Shown here: positions 1 to 62,629 of the stretch, piece by piece
Position numbering within the stretch: position 1 is the first letter of the stretch
How the letters are laid out: each line of letters opens with the position of its first letter
Source of the DNA: Notolepis coatsorum
Lineage: Eukaryota > Chordata > Actinopteri > Aulopiformes > Paralepididae
Reading direction: 5' to 3'
NCBI GenBank assembly: GCA_963971535.1
Contig: OZ020598.1
Span: forward strand, 88,798,985 to 88,862,984
Length of the DNA stretch: 64,000 nt
Position numbers and translations under genes: made by a program
The notes under the pieces: generated by a model
Seen by the model: the letters and a program-made list of their open reading frames with translations, nothing else
The model's database searches: none
What the model was told of the DNA's origin: nothing

Positions 1-2719
1 TGTCTACTAGTGCTGCCTCATTGTCTAAGAGTGCTGCCTCATTGTCTACTAGTGCTGCCTCATTGTCTAAGAGTGCTGCCTCATTGTCTAATAGTGCTGC
101 CTCATTGTCTACTAGTGCTGCCTCATTGTCTACTAGTGCTGCCTCATTGTCTACTAGTGCTGCCTCATTGTCTACGAGTGCTGCCTCATTGTCTAATAGT
201 GCTGCCTCATTGTCCAATAGTGCTGCCTCATTGTCTACTAGTGCTGCCTCATTGTCTAAGAGTGCTACCTCATTGTCTACTAGTGCTGCCTCATTGTCTA
301 AGAGTGCTGCCTCATTGTCTACTAGTGCTGCCTCATTGTCTAAGAGTGCTGCCTCATTGTCTACTAGTGCTGCCTCATTGTCTAAGAGTGCTGCCTCATT
401 GTCTACTAGTGCTGCCTCATTGTCTAATAGTGCTGCCTCATTGTCTACTAGTGCTGCCTCATTGTCTAATAGTGCTGCCTCATTGTCTACTAGTGCTGCC
501 TCATTGTCTACTAGTGCTGCCTCATTGTCTACTAGTGCTGCCTCATTGTCTACTAGTGCTGCCTCATTGTCTACGAGTGCTGCCTCATTGTCTAATAGTG
601 CTGCCTCATTGTCTAATAGTGCTGCCTCATTGTCTACTAGTGCTGCCTCATTGTCTAAGAGTGCTGCCTCATTGTCTACGAGTGCTGCCTCATTGTCTAC
701 TAGTGCTGCCTCATTGTCTACTAGTGCTGCCTCATTGTCTACTAGTGCTGCCTCATTGTCTACGAGTGCTGCCTCATTGTCTACGAGTGCTGCCTCATTG
801 TCTACTAGTGCTGCCTCATTGTCTACTAGTGCTGCCTCATTGTCTACTAGTGCTGCCTCATTGTCTACTAGTGCTGCCTCATTGTCTACTAGTGCTGCCT
901 CATTGTCTACTAGTGCTGCCTCATTGTCTAAGAGTGCTGCCTCATTGTCTACTAGTGCTGCCTCATTGTCTAATAGTGCTGCCTCATTGTCTACTAGTGC
1001 TGCCTCATTGTCTACTAGTGCTGCCTCATTGTCTAAGAGTGCTGCCTCATTGTCTAAGAGTGCTGCCTCATTGTCTACGAGTGCTGCCTCATTGTCTACT
1101 AGTGCTGCCTCATTGTCTAAGAGTGCTGCCTCATTGTCTACTAGTGCTGCCTCATTGTCTAAGAGTGCTGCCTCATTGTCTACTAGTGCTGCCTCATTGT
1201 CTAATAGTGCTGCCTCATTGTCTACTAGTGCTGCCTCATTGTCTAATAGTGCTGCCTCATTGTCTACTAGTGCTGCCTCATTGTCTACTAGTGCTGCCTC
1301 ATTGTCTACTAGTGCTGCCTCATTGTCTACTAGTGCTGCCTCATTGTCTACGAGTGCTGCCTCATTGTCTAATAGTGCTGCCTCATTGTCTAATAGTGCT
1401 GCCTCATTGTCTACTAGTGCTGCCTCATTGTCTAAGAGTGCTGCCTCATTGTCTACGAGTGCTGCCTCATTGTCTACTAGTGCTGCCTCATTGTCTAATA
1501 GTGCTGCCTCATTGTCTACTAGTGCTGCCTCATTGTCTACTAGTGCTGCCTCATTGTCTAAGAGTGCTGCCTCATTGTCTAAGAGTGCTGCCTCATTGTC
1601 TACGAGTGCTGCCTCATTGTCTACTAGTGCTGCCTCATTGTCTAAGAGTGCTGCCTCATTGTCTACTAGTGCTGCCTCATTGTCTAAGAGTGCTGCCTCA
1701 TTGTCTACTAGTGCTGCCTCATTGTCTAATAGTGCTGCCTCATTGTCTACTAGTGCTGCCTCATTGTCTAATAGTGCTGCCTCATTGTCTACTAGTGCTG
1801 CCTCATTGTCTACTAGTGCTGCCTCATTGTCTACTAGTGCTGCCTCATTGTCTACTAGTGCTGCCTCATTGTCTACGAGTGCTGCCTCATTGTCTAATAG
1901 TGCTGCCTCATTGTCTAATAGTGCTGCCTCATTGTCTACTAGTGCTGCCTCATTGTCTAAGAGTGCTGCCTCATTGTCTACGAGTGCTGCCTCATTGTCT
2001 ACTAGTGCTGCCTCATTGTCTACTAGTGCTGCCTCATTGTCTACTAGTGCTGCCTCATTGTCTAAGAGTGCTGCCTCATTGTCTAAGAGTGCTGCCTCAT
2101 TGTCTACTAGTGCTGCCTCATTGTCTAATAGTGCTGCCTCATTGTCTACTAGTGCTGCCTCATTGTCTAATAGTGCTGCCTCATTGTCTACTAGTGCTGC
2201 CTCATTGTCTAAGAGTGCTGCCTCATTGTCTACGAGTGCTGCCTCATTGTCTACTAGTGCTGCCTCATTGTCTACTAGTGCTGCCTCATTGTCTACTAGT
2301 GCTGCCTCATTGTCTAAGAGTGCTGCCTCATTGTCTAAGAGTGCTGCCTCATTGTCTACTAGTGCTGCCTCATTGTCTAATAGTGCTGCCTCATTGTCTA
2401 CTAGTGCTGCCTCATTGTCTACTAGTGCTGCCTCATTGTCTAAGAGTGCTGCCTCATTGTCTAAGAGTGCTGCCTCATTGTCTACGAGTGCTGCCTCATT
2501 GTCTACGAGTGCTGCCTCATTGTCTACGAGTGCTGCCTCATTGTCTACTAGTGCTGCCTCATTGTCTACTAGTGCTGCCTCATTGTCTACTAGTGCTGCC
2601 TCATTGTCTACTAGTGCTGCCTCATTGTCTAAGAGTGCTGCCTCATTGTCTAAGAGTGCTGCCTCATTGTCTACGAGTGCTGCCTCATTGTCTAAGAGTG
2701 CTGCCTCATTGTCTACTAG
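1..2719. repeat. 21-bp minisatellite array, about 129 units, running off the window edge
   Basis: The unit is TGCTGCCTCATTGTCTA followed by four variable bases, mostly CTAG, AGAG, ATAG or CGAG. Only these bases vary systematically; a rare variant is ACCTCA near 266. Because 21 bp is seven codons and the unit has no stop in two plus-strand frames, two ORFs of more than 900 codons run through it (heptads LPHCLxV and SAASLSx). They have no other coding character and I do not regard them as genes. The array lies in the last visible intron of polr2b, about 110 bp past the exon 23 donor. Blocks of the same variant order recur (see findings). Confidence 0.97.
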
Positions 2720-29476
<26,757 letters not shown>

Positions 29477-47959: not shown

Positions 47960-50900
47960 GTATTTTTGCAATTTTTATTTAAAAATGTACAGAGCAGAAT
48001 AAAACTATGATACAGGATTTTTTACTTTTGAAACACAGAATAGTTGAATCTACATCTCATTGATTAAACTTTGTGTGGACAGAAGGATTGGGGAGTTGCA
48101 CCCAACTATATTAGTCTGTGGATTGTTGAAAATAATGAATGGAAGAAACGGACATCGTTTTTCACTAACTGCAAACAACCCATGACGGGTCAAGGCTATA
48201 GTTGATTATAATACTAAGATGATTACAATGTGAACCCACTTCAGGAAATCATAAAATGATGTGGACAAAGAAAATAGATCAATGAATGTAGAATGTAAAA
48301 GATGGGTAACCCTTAACTTAAAGTGTTGCTTGGAAGGCATCATAGGTTAATATAGGCATATTATGAGTGCATCATAAGTAGAACCTGATAGGATACACTA
48401 TAATACACAACGTGCAAAAATGAATCGCTTACTTCCCGGAATGACTGAACAGCCATTAAAAAAGAAAAAGTATGGACTCATGGTACTATAAGGCGCTTTG
48501 GTTAAAAGCATCCATGTTATGTTATGTTAATATAATAATGCATATACAATATGCTTACATTGTGCTAATGATGCCTCACAACACAATACACTTCAAATCA
48601 AGAGTTCATTTAAGGAATATGTACAATTATAGGGGATATAACCACCTAAACAAGAGTGCATTTATACAAGAGTTCAAAAGTACTTTTAGCTTGATATTCT
48701 CACTTTGGCATCACAACTAAAAGGCAATATTGCACAGAATTGATCTATAGGGTCAGGGACACATACAATATTTGAATTCACAATTCTCAACTATCATCTG
48801 AATCCAATTAACACAGCTAAACCAGCAGAGGTGTTCGCTGTCTTGATGTCACAAAAATAAGTTTGTTTTGGGTGCACAAGATTGTTATGGAAACAGGTTT
48901 ACACTGGTGTTGGGTTGCGTTTTAAGAGATACCTTGACATTTCAAATTTTCTAGGTGGTAATATTAAAAATGACAATGTATCACTTTGATATATTTTTTG
49001 TGCGAATGATCAGATCTTTGTAATTAGTTCCAGATATCTTTCCTAATATACACCATAACAACCTTTCAAGGAAATGCATTAGGGAATTCCAGGTAGCGGA
49101 CCCAGGAACAGTTTTAGTTGAATGGGTTTTTTGTCAAGATGTATTTTCAAAGAAAATATTTTAAAAGCCAACTATTTGAATCCCAAGGCTGTTCTAGCAG
49201 GCTGTCGAAGGTTATACTTTGTGCCTCGTAATTTTAAATGACGGCCTGCTAGAGGAGTATAACCACCTTGGGATTCAAACAGTTTGTACTGAGACTGGTC
49301 CTGGGGTCCATTTCCGCATTATTCACTAAAGCAGCTGAAACCACAGAAACACACCCAATGTACTCAAAAAAAATTACTACTAAACCTCAAGGAATGGTCA
49401 TACAGATGCATATATAATTCAACAGAATAGAATAAATGAGCAGAGGAACTCATACACTTACAAAGGGAATGTCTCCATTCACTTAAGTAAGCCTACTCAG
49501 AAAAAATTATACATAAACATGACAAAACAGTTACATTACAGAACAAAGTCGAAGGCACTGTAGAATAAAAAAGAAAAGAAAATAAAACGACTAATTGTAT
49601 AAAATAATCTTTGGCCTTGACGTCACCTAGAAAATGCTCTCTGATCAAGGCAACCTTTCTGACACTGTCTAGGGTACGTTAAGCACAATGTTCTCTCTGA
49701 AGCTAGAAGATGTAGTCTGTATTGGGGTGAGTTGGTTGTTTTTTGTCTATATACATCTACGTTTATTTCGCTTACATTCCATTTGTATTACATTGTAGAT
49801 GAATAAACAGCCAATTTTTTTTTTTTTTTTTTTAACAAACTTTAGGTCCCACATTACTGTTTATATGAGCAATAATATTTAAAATCTTTCAGACATTGAG
49901 CCCAAAGATAATCCCAGTGTATAATTCTCACATAGTCCAAGTAACAGACATATGTTAATATGGGCCAATTAGTTCATGGCTAGTTTACCATCATTTATGA
50001 CAAGATAATGAAAGCCCAACTCACTTTCATTTGGTTGCATGTTGACACCAGAGCACCCTGGGCAAAATCATATTTACAATCCCACTGCAAAAGATAAAGT
50101 CTCTGTTCAATATGCGCTGTGAATAAAGTAATTTTGACCTCAGTTCATTATAAAGGATCCATGCCAAGTGACGATCACAAGGCTTTTAGCTACAATGCTT
50201 GTAATACAAAACAAAATATTACAAGATCTCCCAACATAGCTGACTGGACTACTCTGAAATTGGGATGATTTCTGAAAAGAGAAGTCTGTTGATGCTACTA
50301 ATCTACAAGGCTTTGATGGGATAGCAGTTCCTTTCCAAAAGGAGAAGATCCACATGATGGGAAGATGGCAACTCCCAAAAAACATATTGGCCATATTCAC
50401 ACGGTGGCCATTTTGCTCTTATGTCACGCTCACGTTGAGATTCCTTTCCACCCTGTTCCCACCCATCAGGGAACACTCATCAGTTCTACCAGCCAGTAGG
50501 CAGCCAAAAGATTTAACTGGCTTGTTGCAATTCTAAATCCCGTAGCCTCTGTACTGTAGTTGCTTGACTAATTACTATTAGGCCTACCACTTTCTCCACT
50601 GCTGATATCGATTCTGATCATTACTAGTAGGCCTACCACTTTCTCCACTGAAGATACCGATTCAATCGAAACATTAATATAATCGCTTTTTCACCACTAG
50701 AGATTTCTGAGTCAATCGCACAGAAATAAATTTTTTACATTTTGTTGGCATCAGATTTTTATATTTGGGGACATTTTCAGAATACCAATACCCTATTTTA
50801 GTCTGACATTGGCCCGGTCAGTGCATCCCTACTAGTAATTGAGTTTTATGACCCACTCCCTCCCTATACACATAACCCTAAACACACTCCCTGCATCAGC

Positions 50901-52772
50901 CACTTCTAATAACCCTAACCCTATACACACTAACCTGCATCAGCCACTTCTTATAACCCTATACACACTAACCTGCATCAGCCACTTCTTATAACCCTAT
51001 ACACACACTAACCTGCATCAGCCACTTCTTATAACCCTATACACACTAACCTGCATCAGCCACTTCTTATAACCCTATACACACACTAACCTGCATCAGC
51101 CACTTCTTATAACCCTATACACACACTAACCTGCATCAGCCACTTCTTATAACCCTATACACACACTAACCTGCATCAGCCACTTCTTATAACCCTATAC
51201 ACACACTAACCTGCATCAGCCACTTCTTATAACCCTATACACACACTAACCTGCATCAGCCACTTCTTATAACCCTATACACACACTAACCTGCATCAGC
51301 CACTTCTTATAACCCTATACACACTAACCTGCATCAGCCACTTCTTATAACCCTAAACCTTATACACACTCCCTGCATCAGCCACTTCTAATAACCCTAT
51401 ACACACTAACCTGCATCAGCCACTTCTAATAACCCTAACCCTATACACACTAACCTGCATCAGCCACTTCTTATAACCCTATACACACTAACCTGCATCA
51501 GCCACTTCTTATAACCCTAAACCTTATACACACTCCCTGCATCAGCCACTTCTAATAACCCTAACCCTATACACACTAACCTGCATCAGCCACTTATAAT
51601 AACCCTATACACACTAACCTGCATCAGCCACTTCTAATAACCCTAACCCTATACACACTAACCTGCATCAGCCACTTCTAATAACCCTAACCCTATACAC
51701 ACTACCTGCATTAGCCACTTCTAATAACCCTATACACACTAACCTGCATAAGCCACTTCTAATGGAGTGAATTGGCATGCAATGAGTGAGAGCTCCATTA
51801 CACTCTGAACCACCTGAGTCCTTCTGATCTCATCTCCCTGCGGGAACCGAGGGGGTTTTCTTTGGTTCAGTGTCACCCTTCCTTTCATGGTGGGATTTGC
51901 TAACGTTGCTCCTCGCCAGGGCTGACGGATGGAGAAGCGGTGGCATTGGCAGTGGAGTCTAGAGCGGTGGATGTTACCGTTTCTCAAAAGAGGGAAATAT
52001 AACCTGTGTCACAGTATTATTTACATATTAAAAGGAGCAACAGGCGGCCATTGATTATGGGCAGAATCTGGAAATGTTTTCAAATCCATGAACAGAATTC
52101 GACATCACCCTTCCCGATCAGAATGCCTCCAAAGCCACGGCCCTCTACGATTACTGTCGAGATATAATAACAAGTGGCAGCCGCCTATTGATCCTTTAAC
52201 CCTTTCAGCTGTATGATCTCACATATGCGATTGGAATTGTGAGAACTGAACATTCTGATGATGATGGCATACTGGCTATTGTTAACTTGCACCTGAAAGG
52301 GTTCAAATATATGTGTTATTGAACTTAAAAAGAACAAATAAGAATTAGGGAGATATTATAATTGGCTTAACCAAGTAGTCATTTGGAGCTAAATGTGGCT
52401 GTCAAACTTCACACATCCTACAGATGGACTTCAATACATTTTTATCATACCAAGCAAAGAATATTTCACAACTTCTCCTTGATGTAGCCTGCCACAACTG
52501 AGAGCCTGGATAAACTTGACATTAGATCTCAGCTAAATTGGCAGAAATTGGGCAAGGCCTTCAAAAAAGAAGGGACTCTTCTCTACATCGACTCTTCTCT
52601 ACATCACTGTGTCTGACCACCGTTATGAGACAGGCAATTCATTGTTAATGTGTCTAAAAATATAGGCATCCGGGCCTTAATCGTTCTTCCATTTATAGTA
52701 TAGAATAAATCATCAGGGCAATTCTGGCACTTAAAAAAGAGGGGAATAGTCTATTATGCTTCCTGTAGGCGC
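47960..52772 (-). other. rest: Region downstream of rest: probable 3'UTR plus intergenic DNA
   Basis: On the minus strand this follows the rest stop codon. AATAAA on the minus strand (47974-47979) could be a distal poly(A) signal giving a long 3'UTR that ends about 160 bp from the noa1 signal. It includes a minisatellite at 50869-51765, a fragment of the palindromic MITE near 50391-50440 and a poly-T at 49817-49833. No ORF here looks like a gene. Confidence 0.4.
50869..51765. repeat. 37-39-bp minisatellite, ~22 units, with CCCTAA motifs
   Basis: Unit is 'ataaccctatacacactaac' plus 'ctgcatcagccacttct'. Some units carry AACCCTAACCCTA. It sits 1 kb downstream of rest coding sequence. Confidence 0.95.
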
Positions 52773-54925
52773 TTACTTGTCCCCTTTGGCTACAGTGTCC
52801 ATGTAATAGACATTCACCAGGTGTCGGTTCAGATGGCGACGGTACTCTACTTCCAAGGGGAACGTACGGTCACAGAAGACACACATGTGACTCTTGAGTT
52901 CGGTCGGAGTCGGGATTTCGTCCGTGGGGGTTTCGGGGTCATTCGGCATCTTCCCCGTGCCGGGTGCCGTGCCATTCAGGCCGGAGTCGTCGCTGCCCTC
53001 GGAGGCACTGTCGCTGATGTCACTTCCTCCTTCATGGCTGCTGTGGACGCCCTCGTCCTCGTCTGTGTCTGCGGGTTTCCCACGTTGCCCGGGGAGCTCC
53101 AGAGAGGGCGTTGTGGGTTTGAGCTCCAGAGAGGGCGTTGTGGGTTTGAGCTCCAGAGAGGGCGTTGTGGGTTTGAGCTCCAGAGAGGGCGTTGTGGGTT
53201 TCGCCAGCGGGCGTCTGAAGGTTGGAGACGGGCCGTCCTCAACAGGAGACGGGGTCTCCTCACCTGAGCTGCAGTTGACTGCCTGCTTCTCCTCGCTTTT
53301 GTCTGAAATCTTCTCTGGCGTTGTGGAAGTTGACGTTTTATCTGTGGGGGTGTTTTGCGGCGTGACGTGTATTTCTGGAGAATTCTGCTCAGTGCTGGTG
53401 TTGTCGGGTGTTGGGATGACCTTCGGAGGGGAAGCTCTCCTGGGTAGCTCTGTGCCAGGGCCCTTTTTGCGTTCAAGAGAACTAGGAGTGTCCACACCAA
53501 CTGAAGCCTTCTTGACGTCAGTGAGAACCACAGTCTCTTTAGGGTCTGGGGTTTTCTTGTTGGTCTTTTTGGCTTTCTTCAGCTTTACCGGAGCAGGCGC
53601 CGTCTCGTCCGCCTGGTTGTTCTGCACGGCCGGGCAAGGCTCAACTGTCCTGGAACTGCTGGTGGTACTAGACGGTGGCTTGGCAACAACCTTGGCTTTC
53701 GACCGTTTTGCTTTGGTAGCACACTGACACATTGTGGCAGCCGATGTCTTCGTTGACAAGTCCAAGGCCTCCACCACTTTCCTCTTCACAGCCTTCGTCT
53801 TGACCACCTTATCCACTTGATTTTTCGCCTGACTTTCTTGTTTCCGTGGAGCCTCCCTGACAGTTTCAGTAACCTTCTCAGTGTTTTTAGAACCACCATT
53901 CCTTGGCTTCTTAACGATTTTGTTCTCCTTTCCGCTGCTCTCGTTCCTTGGCTGTTCTTTGTTCTTCTGAAGTCTGGCTGTTTCTTTCTCTCCCTCTTTC
54001 TTGCTCTCAGCACTTTCTTTCTCTGTCCCGTCTTGGTTTGGATCGGATTTCTCTCTCTTTACTTGGTCTTTTTCCAAACTTGACTGTTGGACTTTCTCCA
54101 CCGATTCCATACATGTAGCCTTGTGTGCCTTGCCACTTGTCGTCTTTTCCTGTAGAAGCGTTATCTTGTCCGGTACAGCTATAGTCTTGTCCTGCACTGC
54201 CGTTTTCTCGGCAGGCTGCTTTTTGGAACGTTTCTTTGCTTTGTTGTTTACGGTGCTTTCGACAGCAGCTGCAGTCTCCATCTCGCGGTCTTTCACGGTA
54301 GAGTTCTCCTTCGCATTCTCACTGATCTTCTGATTCTTCTTCTGTTTGGGTGTCATCTTTTTCTCCGCTTTGTCCTTTGCCTTTGTAGCTTTCTCTTTGA
54401 CAGGAGTAGCCTCACACTGGGTTGGAGTCTTGACTGGTTCACTTTCTACAGCTTCACCAGGGTTCAGCTCGCTGCCCTTCTTGATCGACAGATTGATGGG
54501 ACGTGACTGTTTATAGGGAGACTCCAGCCCTTCGTCTTCTTCCATGTCATCATTATCATCATCATCATAATCATCCTCTTCAAAGTTGGACGATACGTTT
54601 ACGATACGTATACCGATCTTCTTAACGCGGAGTTTCACCTTCGACACGTCGATGGCGATGTCGCAACCCGGGTGCCTGGACTTTATGTGGTACTGAAGAT
54701 TGCACTTCTTTGAAGCTGCGTACTTGCAGACCGGACAGAGGAACTGACGGGGGTTGAGGTGGAGCTCCACATGCTTTTTGTAATTGCTGCGATCTGCAGT
54801 CTTGTAATGGCAGTAGGGGCAGACTAGAGGCTTGGGCCCGTTGTGGACTTGCCTGGAGTGACGAGTGACCTCGTGCTGGTTAGCCGCCAAGTAATTGCAG
54901 CTCTCGCATTTGAAAGGTCTTTCGC
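52773..54925 (-). CDS. rest: rest coding exon 5 (residues 348-1064): fingers 6-9, repressor tail
   Basis: Starts [20 protein letters not shown] (finger 6), then [19 protein letters not shown] (finger 7) and [19 protein letters not shown] (finger 8). An acidic run [18 protein letters not shown] follows, then a basic low-complexity region, a 4 x 9-residue KPTTPSLEL repeat, the conserved acidic Ser-rich block, and finger 9. The stop follows VAKGDK. Confidence 0.96.
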
Positions 54926-60900: not shown

Positions 60901-62629
60901 TCCTAGAATATTTCTGACATTTCCTTTATTTAATTCCTTGAATTTAATTTTTTTAAATAAAGTGCTACACAAATAACAGTCAATTCTGACGTCAATCATG
61001 TCCATACCTGTGGTCGTCTCCCTCCTTGCTGTGGTGCTTGAGGTGAGCGATGTAATGGTCGTAGCGGTTGGTGTTATACCCGCACCTCTGGCAGTGTATC
61101 ACCCCTTTGCTCTCCGTCTTCACCGCCGCGTCCCTGCCGTTCTCCGCCGCGCCCCCCTTGGCGGCCTGCGGTCCGGCGAGGCCGTCCTCCTTGCCCGTCA
61201 GCCCGTTCTTCCCCTCGGCGTGGTTCACCCTCATCGTCTTGTGGGTTCCCAGATGCTCCACGAACTCCTGCTCGCACTCTGCCTGGTAGTGGCAGGGCTT
61301 ACAGTGAAAGGGCTTCTTTTTCTTGGCCGTCCTCGTGATCAAGTGGCTGATCTGGAGTCGCGGGCGCTCTGGGCCGGCCGCGGGCCGTGGCTCGGCGGGG
61401 CTGGACAGGTCAGTGAGGTTTTCCTCCTCCTCCTCCTGGGGTTCCTGGTCTTCCTCCTCCATTCTCTCGTGCTCCCCGACAACCACGGCCCGGACCCCCG
61501 GCGGACACTCGGGATACTCGATGATACAGAGGTCCCTGTCCTTGTCATAGCTGTACCTGAGGAAGAAGAACACTTTAGTATGGGTGGGTGGCCTAAAATG
61601 TATATCACGGTATATTTGTCTTTCTTATAATAATAATAATAATAATAATAATAAGTACAAGACTCTGGGATGGTAACAATCTATTCACAGAGGGTTAACT
61701 ATGAGGTTTCTACTTTCTACTGGGCTCCTCCATTAGTATTCTGTAATCTGTACCTATCCACCCCTAAGATAGGGTCAGAAATTAGTAGTAATAGTAGTAC
61801 TAGTGGTGGTGGTAATGGTAGTAGTAATAGTAGTTTAGTTTATTTGATAGGGACAGCACAGTACTAGTGGTGGTGGTAATGGTAGTAGTAATAGTAGTTT
61901 AGTTTAGTTTATTTGATAGGGACAGCACAGTACTAGTGGTGGTGGTAATGGTAGTAGTAATAGTAGTTTAGTTTATTTGATAGGGACAGCACAGTACTAG
62001 TGGTGGTGGTAATGGTAGTAGTAATAGTAGTTTAGTTTATTTGATAGGGACAGCACAGTACTAGTGGTGGTGGTAATGGTAGTAGTAATAGTAGTTTAGT
62101 TTATTTGATAGGGACAGCACAGTACTAGTGGTGGTGGTAATGGTAGTAGTAATAGTAGTTTAGTTTAGTTTATTTGATAGGGACAGCACAGTACTAGTGG
62201 TGGTGGTAATGGTAGTAGTGGTAATATTAGTAGTAGTAAAAACTAAACAAATGCCTCTGTAGTACTCTGTAGTTGTTGTTGTAGTAGTTAATAGTAGTGT
62301 TAGTAGTAGTGGTACTAGTAATAGTACTGTAGAAGTGGTAGTAGTAGTTGTGGTAGTAGTCGTCGTCATAGTAGTAATTACCTGATGACATTTTCATCCT
62401 CGCTGTCAGAGTAGCTGCAGCCGACCGTCTTCAGCTCCATCATCTCCTTCTCGTCCGCCATGCTGCCGTCGCAGCCCCCGCCCTCTGCCGCCGCCACGTT
62501 GGCCAGCATCACCAGCTGAGGGGCCGGCAGGTCGCTGTGGGCCAGTTCGCTCAGACTCTGGGGCACCTCCACCACCATGGGCACACCGACGGGGTACGAC
62601 CCCATTGCAAACATTGTCTGAGTAGCCAT
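52773..62629 (-). CDS. rest: RE1-silencing transcription factor REST/NRSF (complete coding region, 5 coding exons)
   Basis: REST is a nuclear zinc-finger repressor that binds RE1/NRSE sites and recruits SIN3 through its N-terminus and CoREST through its C-terminal finger. Exons: 62629-62382, 61556-61008, 60653-60493, 56370-56287 and 54925-52773, giving 3195 nt, 1064 aa plus stop (human 1097). The N-terminus has [13 protein letters not shown], matching the SIN3-binding segment. Fingers 1 and 2 are at residues 168-188 and 238-258, with the typical [10 protein letters not shown]. Fingers 3-8 follow in exons 3-5. A long Lys/Glu/Pro-rich low-complexity region comes next, then [20 protein letters not shown] and [11 protein letters not shown] (the conserved beta-TrCP degron area), and finger 9 ([21 protein letters not shown]) near the end. 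All junctions are GT-AG and in phase. Confidence 0.96.
53095..53205 (-). repeat. rest: 27-bp in-frame coding repeat (KPTTPSLEL x4) in rest
   Basis: Four near-identical 27-bp units (plus strand 'gagctccagagagggcgttg' followed by 'tgggttt') each encode KPTTPSLEL. The length keeps the frame. Confidence 0.95.
55296..55345. repeat. Left flank of a ~47-bp tandem array split by a SINE
   Basis: 'cagtatgtctaccactgcta' and 'tgactactactccttctcct' occur here and again at 55800-55935 on the other side of the SINE. Confidence 0.75.
55345..55802 (-). mobile_element. tRNA-derived SINE, family 1, copy 5
   Basis: On the minus strand it begins GGGCGGCTAGGTGGCGCAGT and carries GGGTTCGAGCCC. It is very similar to copy 1 (8250-8730), suggesting recent activity. 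It lies in the last rest intron. Confidence 0.92.
55803..55935. repeat. Right part of the array split by the SINE
   Basis: About three units of 'cagtatgtctaccactgcta' plus 'tgactactactccttctcct'. Confidence 0.8.
56287..56370 (-). CDS. rest: rest coding exon 4 (residues 320-348): zinc finger 5
   Basis: Encodes [20 protein letters not shown] and TRHMRTHSG. It is 84 nt, so skipping it would keep the frame. Donor is GTGAGT. Confidence 0.97.
56520..56760. repeat. Poly-C run, short duplication and (AAT)n
   Basis: A C run lies at 56529-56556. 'tttgttatccccccacac' through 'ccttctcccttgatcaa' is duplicated (about 56560-56628 and 56659-56727). AAT units occur at 56727-56745. Confidence 0.75.
56775..58110. 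mobile_element. PIF/Harbinger-like non-autonomous transposon, 1336 bp, TSD TTA
   Basis: Ends are GGCCATGTCCAGACGAAAAC and the inverse GGTTTCGTCTGGACATGGCC, extending to ~30 bp with few mismatches. They are flanked by TTA (56772-56774, 58111-58113). A 3-bp TTA/TWA duplication fits PIF/Harbinger. No transposase was found. It lies in rest intron 3. Confidence 0.82.
58150..59619. mobile_element. hAT-like transposon, 1470 bp, TSD GTTCTTAG, carrying a nested hAT
   Basis: Ends are TAGGGCTGGGACTTTATGG and ATCGAGTCCCACCACTA. TSD GTTCTTAG lies at 58142-58149 and 59620-59627. Confidence 0.92.
58683..59144. mobile_element. hAT-like MITE nested in a hAT, 462 bp, TSD GACTGTAG
   Basis: Ends are TAGGGCTGCACGATTTTGGG and TTAATCATTCAGCCCTA. 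TSD GACTGTAG lies at 58675-58682 and 59145-59152. Confidence 0.95.
59628..59915. repeat. 35-bp minisatellite in rest intron 3
   Basis: Unit is 'gaaataacaatgtgttcttt' plus 'gttagattatctggc', with older variants to the left. Matching pieces at 56750-56774 and 58111-58149 show that the array has been split by two transposons. Confidence 0.92.
59960..60120 (-). mobile_element. LINE 3' tail fragment (probable)
   Basis: 'aagataagataagacaagaa' next to 'acgttattgtcacagagggg' and 'aaaatttac' resembles the tails at 13838 and 40737. Confidence 0.45.
60493..60653 (-). CDS. rest: rest coding exon 3 (residues 266-320): zinc fingers 3 and 4
   Basis: Encodes [20 protein letters not shown] and [20 protein letters not shown], ending VRTHTG. 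Donor is GTAGGT. Confidence 0.97.
60654..61007. other. rest: rest intron 2
   Basis: AT-rich intron with no other feature seen. Confidence 0.6.
61008..61556 (-). CDS. rest: rest coding exon 2 (residues 83-266): zinc fingers 1 and 2
   Basis: Begins [20 protein letters not shown]. An acidic stretch follows, then finger 1 ([20 protein letters not shown]), a linker, and finger 2 ([21 protein letters not shown]). Donor is GTATGG. Confidence 0.96.
61628..62375. repeat. Tandem repeats up to the rest exon 1 donor (~60-bp units, GTA-rich)
   Basis: An AAT run (61628-61653) is followed, from about 61780 to 62230, by about seven units containing 'tttatttgatagggacagca' and 'agtactagtggtggtggtaa'. An irregular GTA/GTT-rich stretch continues to about 62375. 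The block ends about 6 bp from the first coding exon donor. Confidence 0.93.
62382..62629 (-). CDS. rest: rest coding exon 1 (residues 1-83): SIN3-interaction N-terminus
   Basis: Starts [20 protein letters not shown] and contains [17 protein letters not shown] and [10 protein letters not shown]. The ATG at 62629 has A at -3 and G at +4, and MATQ matches REST of other vertebrates. Donor is GTAATT. Confidence 0.95.

Follow-up and report, generated by a model that had tools for sequence, protein, structure and literature searches.

Amphioxus genes carry minisatellites that lie across exon–intron boundaries, the so-called "mirages" of Adh3 and the globin genes (PMC3087553), with TnC also mentioned and similar repeats in PGBD5 (PMC3087553, PMC3902484), and these arrays are said to leave splicing undisturbed (PMC3087553, PMC3902484). 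In humans, variable internal tandem repeats have been described at the exon–intron boundaries of segmental-duplication genes and proposed as a source of novel introns (PMC2812944). The Rogers model, as cited in the amphioxus work, derives intron gain from tandem duplication of AG/GT proto-splice sites (PMC3087553), and prolific tandem repeats have been reported in the Atlantic cod (PMC5241972).

How do the arrays in polr2b of a bony vertebrate, and in the other genes to which we compare it, relate to these systems? As in the amphioxus mirages, tandem copies span the junction of exon and intron, be it the 5' or the 3' one, and many carry AG/GT (PMC3087553, PMC3902484); unlike them, the copies here belong to many conserved housekeeping genes of a bony vertebrate and number up to 18 exact junction copies per intron, and there is, in addition, a measured excess of arrays close to donors that do not include them. 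The human repeats also have units of about 30 bp at vertebrate exon–intron boundaries, but they were found through the variable exons of recently duplicated primate genes (PMC2812944), whereas ours sit in conserved polr2b, cct8, and sf3b1. The Rogers model likewise has splice signals copied by tandem duplication (PMC3087553), but the copies seen here are intronic, beside exon ends, and are known from the intron positions of one species. The cod is, like our fish, a teleost with abundant tandem repeats, and the main text of that paper does without the words splice and exon, so that splice-site position is untreated there (PMC5241972). Among the matches listed from the open-licence literature, as titles and the starts of abstracts, none was a genome-wide treatment of splice-site arrays in fish or vertebrates. 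The pattern, then, was previously known from a few lancelet genes; what sets the present case apart is the bony vertebrate, the many conserved genes, and the excess that hugs the donors. A second chordate lineage with mirages would mean that they are no lancelet oddity.

Materials and Methods

The window is the whole stretch of DNA analysed, 64,000 nt at G000:C43:88798985-88862984 within a 3.42-Gb assembly of 4787 contigs. Its minus strand carries polr2b, whose exons 1–23 were located by a purpose-written spliced aligner with residues 1–1080 of human RPB2 as query. TRF at score 40 gave 92 rows in the window; arrays were counted when they had a score of at least 100 and a period of at least 10. 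Their positions were compared with two nulls, one in which each array is placed uniformly within its own intron (uniform) and one in which the first unit is allowed across the exon edge (straddle). A junction copy is a match of at least 68% identity over 22 nt.

Validation genes were picked blind to their repeats (the CCT family, eef2, vcp, cltc, sf3b1, xpo1, and polr2a), and rest joined the set, though it had been named in the sequence-only reading of the window that we follow up here. The final set holds 86 blocks, 214335 bases, 162 donors, 168 acceptors, and 65 arrays; loci L001–L008 stand outside the counts. For the CCT family, 30 of 56 matches were taken as loci and 27 were used, together with 10 further stretches (L009, L012, and L021, with weak matches only to the 8 CCT references, were excluded). 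For eef2 and vcp, 30 of 31 matches were taken and 19 used, the 11 exclusions being an eef2 copy without introns (L039, L040) and other ATPase-like places (L046, L047, L049–L054, L056). The cltc sample has 14 stretches around the best of 33 matches, the sf3b1/xpo1 sample 15 stretches covering 30 matches, and the polr2a sample 10 stretches for 31 query matches; in this genome xpo1 is present as two loci and cltc as three, numbers that would suit a teleost. End exons of less than 45 bp were trimmed, and introns of less than 60 bp were excluded.

Some single cases were adjusted or are to be read with care. One eef2 item (acceptor offset -129) was removed as a misplaced exon; at the earlier stage that included it, 12 validation arrays lay within 50 bp of an acceptor. 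The donor of another eef2 block (L066) sat on a repeat copy, the real one being about 45 bp upstream, at the start of the array, and with the corrected donor the array is still donor-near, its exon overlap shrinking to a few bases. The cct4 acceptor was placed on a copy, which leaves that case doubtful; an sf3b1 array was scored as near (29 bp) and not as spanning; and an eef2 exon 2 acceptor duplication is outside the counts because its block begins at the first codons.

Results

Table 1. Tandem arrays of polr2b and rest in the window, with donor positions on the plus-strand scale.
Feature	Units	Distance	Coordinates	Strand	Donor	Basis
polr2b intron 2 array	32 bp x 3.3	144 bp upstream of acceptor	28314..28416	-		TRF
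polr2b intron 5 array	25 bp x 27	35 bp from donor	25782..26459	-	26494	TRF + exon map
polr2b intron 8 array	50 bp x 2.6	12-bp overlap with exon 8	22674..22803	-	22791	TRF + exon map
polr2b intron 11 array (weak, below count cut)	31 bp x 2.9	about 176 bp past donor	21392..21482	-		
polr2b intron 15 array	about 44 bp, shortened variants about 37 bp	33-bp overlap with exon 15	13250..13642	-	13609	TRF + exon map
polr2b intron 19 array	27 bp x 18	42 bp from donor	7388..7873	-	7915	TRF + exon map
polr2b intron 20 array	about 23 bp, G/A-rich	6 bp from donor (16, merged run)	6131..6484	-	6490	
polr2b intron 21, two weak arrays	24 bp x 2.6 and 43 bp x 3.3	58 bp (24-bp array) and 181 bp (43-bp array) from donor	4910..5170	-	5228	TRF
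polr2b intron 22 array	53 bp x 3.2	33 bp from donor	3250..3421	-	3454	TRF + exon map
polr2b intron 23 array (cut by window start)	21 bp x 130	108 bp from donor	1..2721	-	about 2829	
rest intron 1	degenerate ACT tract, then 64-bp array	about 6 bp past donor (tract) and 142 bp in (array)	61796..62376	-	62381	

Nine merged arrays in polr2b pass the count cut. Six of them have a donor no more than 50 bp away, where the uniform null predicts 0.87 such arrays (p 5e-5) and the straddle null 1.34 (p 3.5e-4). None of the nine comes within 100 bp of any of the 22 acceptors. The nearest is the intron 2 array, a counter-example to the donor bias, which the sequence-only reading had put 150 bp from its acceptor and which measures 144 bp; the polr2b array-to-donor distances of that reading likewise agree to a few bases with TRF and spliced alignment. 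A weaker array of score 68, with two units of 20 bp (8264-8304), stops 97 bp short of the intron 18 acceptor. In rest intron 1, which had been taken for a further example of the same donor pattern, the tract beside the donor is a degenerate trinucleotide repeat and was rejected as a minisatellite, the minisatellite itself starting deeper in the intron; none of the four rest arrays is within 50 bp of a donor or of any other exon edge.

That reading had missed one feature, which is that the units of introns 8 and 15 include the exon tail together with the donor. In intron 8, the unit joins the final 12 nt of exon 8 to the donor and 38 intronic nt, and two extra donor copies stand about 50 and 100 bp into the intron. 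The unit of intron 15 comprises the final 33 nt of exon 15, the donor CAG/GTACTGTT, and about 11 nt more; this junction has 10 further copies of at least 68% identity, of which 9 have GT and 3 match exactly over 22 nt. Because neither 50 nor 44 bp divides by three, splicing at a later donor would be predicted to shift the frame. Within polr2b, boundary-spanning units are confined to these two introns and to donors, and the arrays of introns 5, 19, 20, 22, and 23 lie near a donor without spanning the exon edge.

Set beside the definition of a mirage, the units of polr2b introns 8 and 15 span an exon–intron boundary, both 5' and 3' exon boundaries are duplicated across the genes, and AG/GT signals are found in the copies. 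Judged on the letters, the anatomy appears to fit that definition wherever it can be checked, and arrays that merely approach a donor fall outside it.

The polr2b units had been described as unrelated in sequence, and they do differ from each other, but the 43-bp unit of intron 21 belongs to a dispersed minisatellite family that is genome-wide: it accounts for most of the 96 scored genome matches and is tandem in several of them. In the 21-bp array of intron 23 (1-2721), the unit variants CTACTAG, CTAAGAG, CTAATAG, and CTACGAG apparently repeat in order, which suggests higher-order repeats.

Does the position effect reach beyond one gene? In the validation genes, 19 of 65 arrays have a donor within 50 bp, against 6.45 expected (uniform, p 5e-5) or 8.87 (straddle, p 2e-4), and 11 of 65 are within 50 bp of an acceptor, against 6.01 (uniform, p 0.015) or 8.01 (straddle, p 0.13), where the p-values are nominal because the set was grown stepwise with interim looks and the rule by which some block-end donors were inferred was relaxed between the interim stages. 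At 25 bp, the donor count is 14 against 3.32 (p 5e-5) or 6.50 (straddle, p 0.002), and the acceptor count is 11 against 3.13 (p 1.5e-4) or 5.87 (straddle, p 0.017). Dropping any single gene keeps the donor p at 0.002 or below, and without rest the count is 19 against 8.53 (p 1e-4). Pseudo-edges set 100–300 bp inside introns gave no excess in eight tests over all genes (lowest p 0.25). Under the straddle null within 50 bp, the donor excess appears in the CCT genes alone (p 0.0014) and in eef2/vcp alone (p 0.005); it is not significant singly in sf3b1/xpo1, cltc, rest, or polr2a, and few or no arrays were found in cltc, vcp, cct5, cct7, and most polr2a introns.

The donor:acceptor ratio of the validation genes at the preset cut, 19:11, is not significant (p 0.14); it is 18:7 for validation arrays scoring at least 150 (p 0.027) and 25:11 when polr2b is added (p 0.019). 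By TRF overlap in all genes, polr2b included, arrays span 9 of 185 donors (one, that of eef2 L066, misplaced) and 7 of 190 acceptors. In other words, the bias of the arrays is toward exon edges, toward donors more than acceptors, and not toward donors only. The position dependence that had been proposed from polr2b recurs in further genes, and our sampled check of donor bias did not refute it. The donor-only form of the proposal was abandoned, since arrays occur at acceptors in other genes: the statement that no array sits beside an acceptor describes polr2b but not the validation set. The idea that arrays are tolerated near donors alone was overstated as well, with about half of the validation arrays more than 50 bp from any edge.

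The splice junction itself is copied in many of these arrays. There are 21 donor-junction copies in one cct8 intron (18 exact) and 8 in another (7 exact), 12 (12 exact) and 4 in cct2, 13 in one eef2 array and 15 in a second, and 1 (exact) in polr2a; with the 2 of polr2b intron 8 and the 10 of intron 15, this makes 86 copies in nine arrays, of which 84 retain GT. Two more copies of exon tail plus donor were found by eye in sf3b1. There, the repeat at locus L099 has a CA tract with a final AG joined to an exon tail and a donor, and each copy thus resembles a tiny exon with both splice signals. Acceptor copies number 19 and 36 in cct2, 11 in xpo1, 4 (exact) in cct3, 4 in cct6, and 2 in eef2, which elsewhere has 1 exact copy. 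Many donor-near arrays carry no copy of the donor, and 6 of the 12 listed cct and eef2 arrays have no match to the junction word.

In five arrays, pairwise identity among the copies is 0.98–1.00. A change that is shared by the copies and absent from the authentic exon tail was seen in one cct8 array only, as expected if copies homogenise while the functional copy is held by selection; in the other arrays, the copies are identical to the exon tail, or the unit begins too near the donor for the two to be distinguished. One eef2 intron has an array at its donor in two paralogues, the arrays being unrelated to each other, and the third paralogue has none within the examined block, from which it follows that such arrays arise repeatedly. 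Both the anatomy and the recurrence are matters of observation: there are many genes, unrelated units, near-identical copies, and an excess at exon edges.

Discussion

What could place tandem arrays at the edges of exons and then let them stay? The explanation that we consider probable, although by no means assured, is that short tandem duplications recur at exon edges and are tolerated since the outermost splice site works, giving minisatellites of the mirage type and their kin. Segments mostly of about 20–75 bp, at or just inside the exon–intron edge, would be tandemly duplicated, and slippage or unequal exchange may then expand and homogenise them. Copies of a segment that lies across a splice site would bear, in the case of a donor, the tail of the exon with a seemingly intact donor and, in the case of an acceptor, that acceptor with the start of the exon, and splicing would presumably ignore the inner copies. 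We propose that such an array can last since the authentic site, which is the outermost, remains usable and the copies are wholly intronic. The donor side is probably the commoner because extra donors follow the authentic one in the order of transcription, and the acceptor side is probably the rarer because extra acceptors precede the authentic one and so fall upon the stretch that holds the branch point and the pyrimidines. Slippage or template switching near splice sites, on the one hand, and tolerance, on the other, are both possible contributors and are inseparable here.

A stronger claim would be that exon–intron junctions are mutational hotspots for tandem duplication, with, to judge from the sample, roughly 1 in 20 conserved-gene donors lying within an array of its own copies. 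We offer it tentatively and would sooner bet against it; if true, it would mean that nature has thousands of introns in which many donors are identical, and that parts for new exons and introns arise continually. The introns with up to 18 exact copies of the donor junction are already a natural test of donor choice (is it the first, the strongest, or the one favoured by exon definition?), and the arrays may give rise to novel introns and exons and make the splicing of essential genes hypervariable.

The arrays might instead have been seeded neutrally. If duplications fell uniformly in ancestral introns of about 100–300 bp, all of them would have begun near an exon edge; the arrays, together with later interspersed insertions, would have made the introns longer, and protection of the stretch before the acceptor would over-represent donors. 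The excess does fade once no more than half of the intron is eligible. With half of the non-array intron length eligible, the donor p rises to 0.045 and acceptors fall to 11 against 12.35, for which reason we retain the short-intron account, but at the eligible fraction that the donors require (0.35–0.5), acceptors drop below expectation. Later interspersed insertions could mimic an edge excess by diluting the introns. One eef2 intron (G000:C4:22604747-22605235) has, between its array and its acceptor, a young interspersed repeat of about 470 bp that ends about 20 bp before the acceptor and is 92–97% identical to the 39 other places scored, of 7669 candidates. Against this, such dilution is modest in polr2b intron 15: of 718 bases queried, about 124 match an old multi-copy repeat and 64 match one other place, and the remaining non-array part has no other genome match. 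Introns 19–20 have no interspersed match outside their arrays among the 40 of 2270 candidates scored, in which the intron 21 family was dominant. Interspersed insertions as the full cause of growth were set aside, having been seen only in part, and neutral seeding as a whole seems to us possible but doubtful.

Could the mutation be specific to donors? The sequence-only reading had suggested co-transcriptional R-loops, and R-loops, U1-bound nascent RNA, or polymerase pausing might each provoke slippage or template switching just downstream of a donor. The 6 donor-near and 0 acceptor-near arrays of polr2b and the overall 25:11 (p 0.019) point that way, but acceptor junctions are duplicated as well, and coding-strand GC skew, in the 53-array set, is positive in just 9 of 19 donor-near arrays (mean 0.03) and in 16 of 27 others (mean 0.07). 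An origin in R-loops or G skew was rejected for want of this strand skew, and we regard donor-specific mutation in general as unlikely.

Selection may also be imagined to keep the arrays, if extra donors or G-rich repeats aided intron recognition or held the U1 snRNP on a long pre-mRNA. The G-rich array of intron 20 and the GT kept in nearly all junction copies would suit such a role; homogenisation alone, however, could yield intact copies, and the array is absent at the same donor in one eef2 paralogue, as are donor copies from many donor-near arrays, so that we find selection highly improbable. Chance, or an artefact of assembly or annotation, deserves almost no credence: some block-end donors were inferred, one eef2 exon was misplaced, and one eef2 donor sat on a copy, but the pattern was replicated in genes picked blind to their repeats, several of them with exact junction copies.

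A few further observations concern other repeats and copies. A repeat of 30–32 bp like TTAACCCTTTCACTGCCACACTACAGAAGG makes up the intron 2 array of polr2b (28314-28416) and is also found in introns of cct6, eef2, cltc, xpo1, and polr2a; by eye, from the TRF units, TTAACCCTTTCACTGCCACACTACAGAAGG-like repeats form short arrays in unrelated genes. Near-continuous matches with few stops to eef2 (G000:C6:197382267-197384788) and to sf3b1 (G000:C52:602440-605440) are probably processed retrocopies. Downstream of rest, at 50872-51760, there is a 40-bp x 22 array with TAACCC motifs, and the last exon of rest holds an in-frame coding minisatellite at 53094-53201, with four perfect copies of a 27-bp unit that encodes LELKPTTPS.
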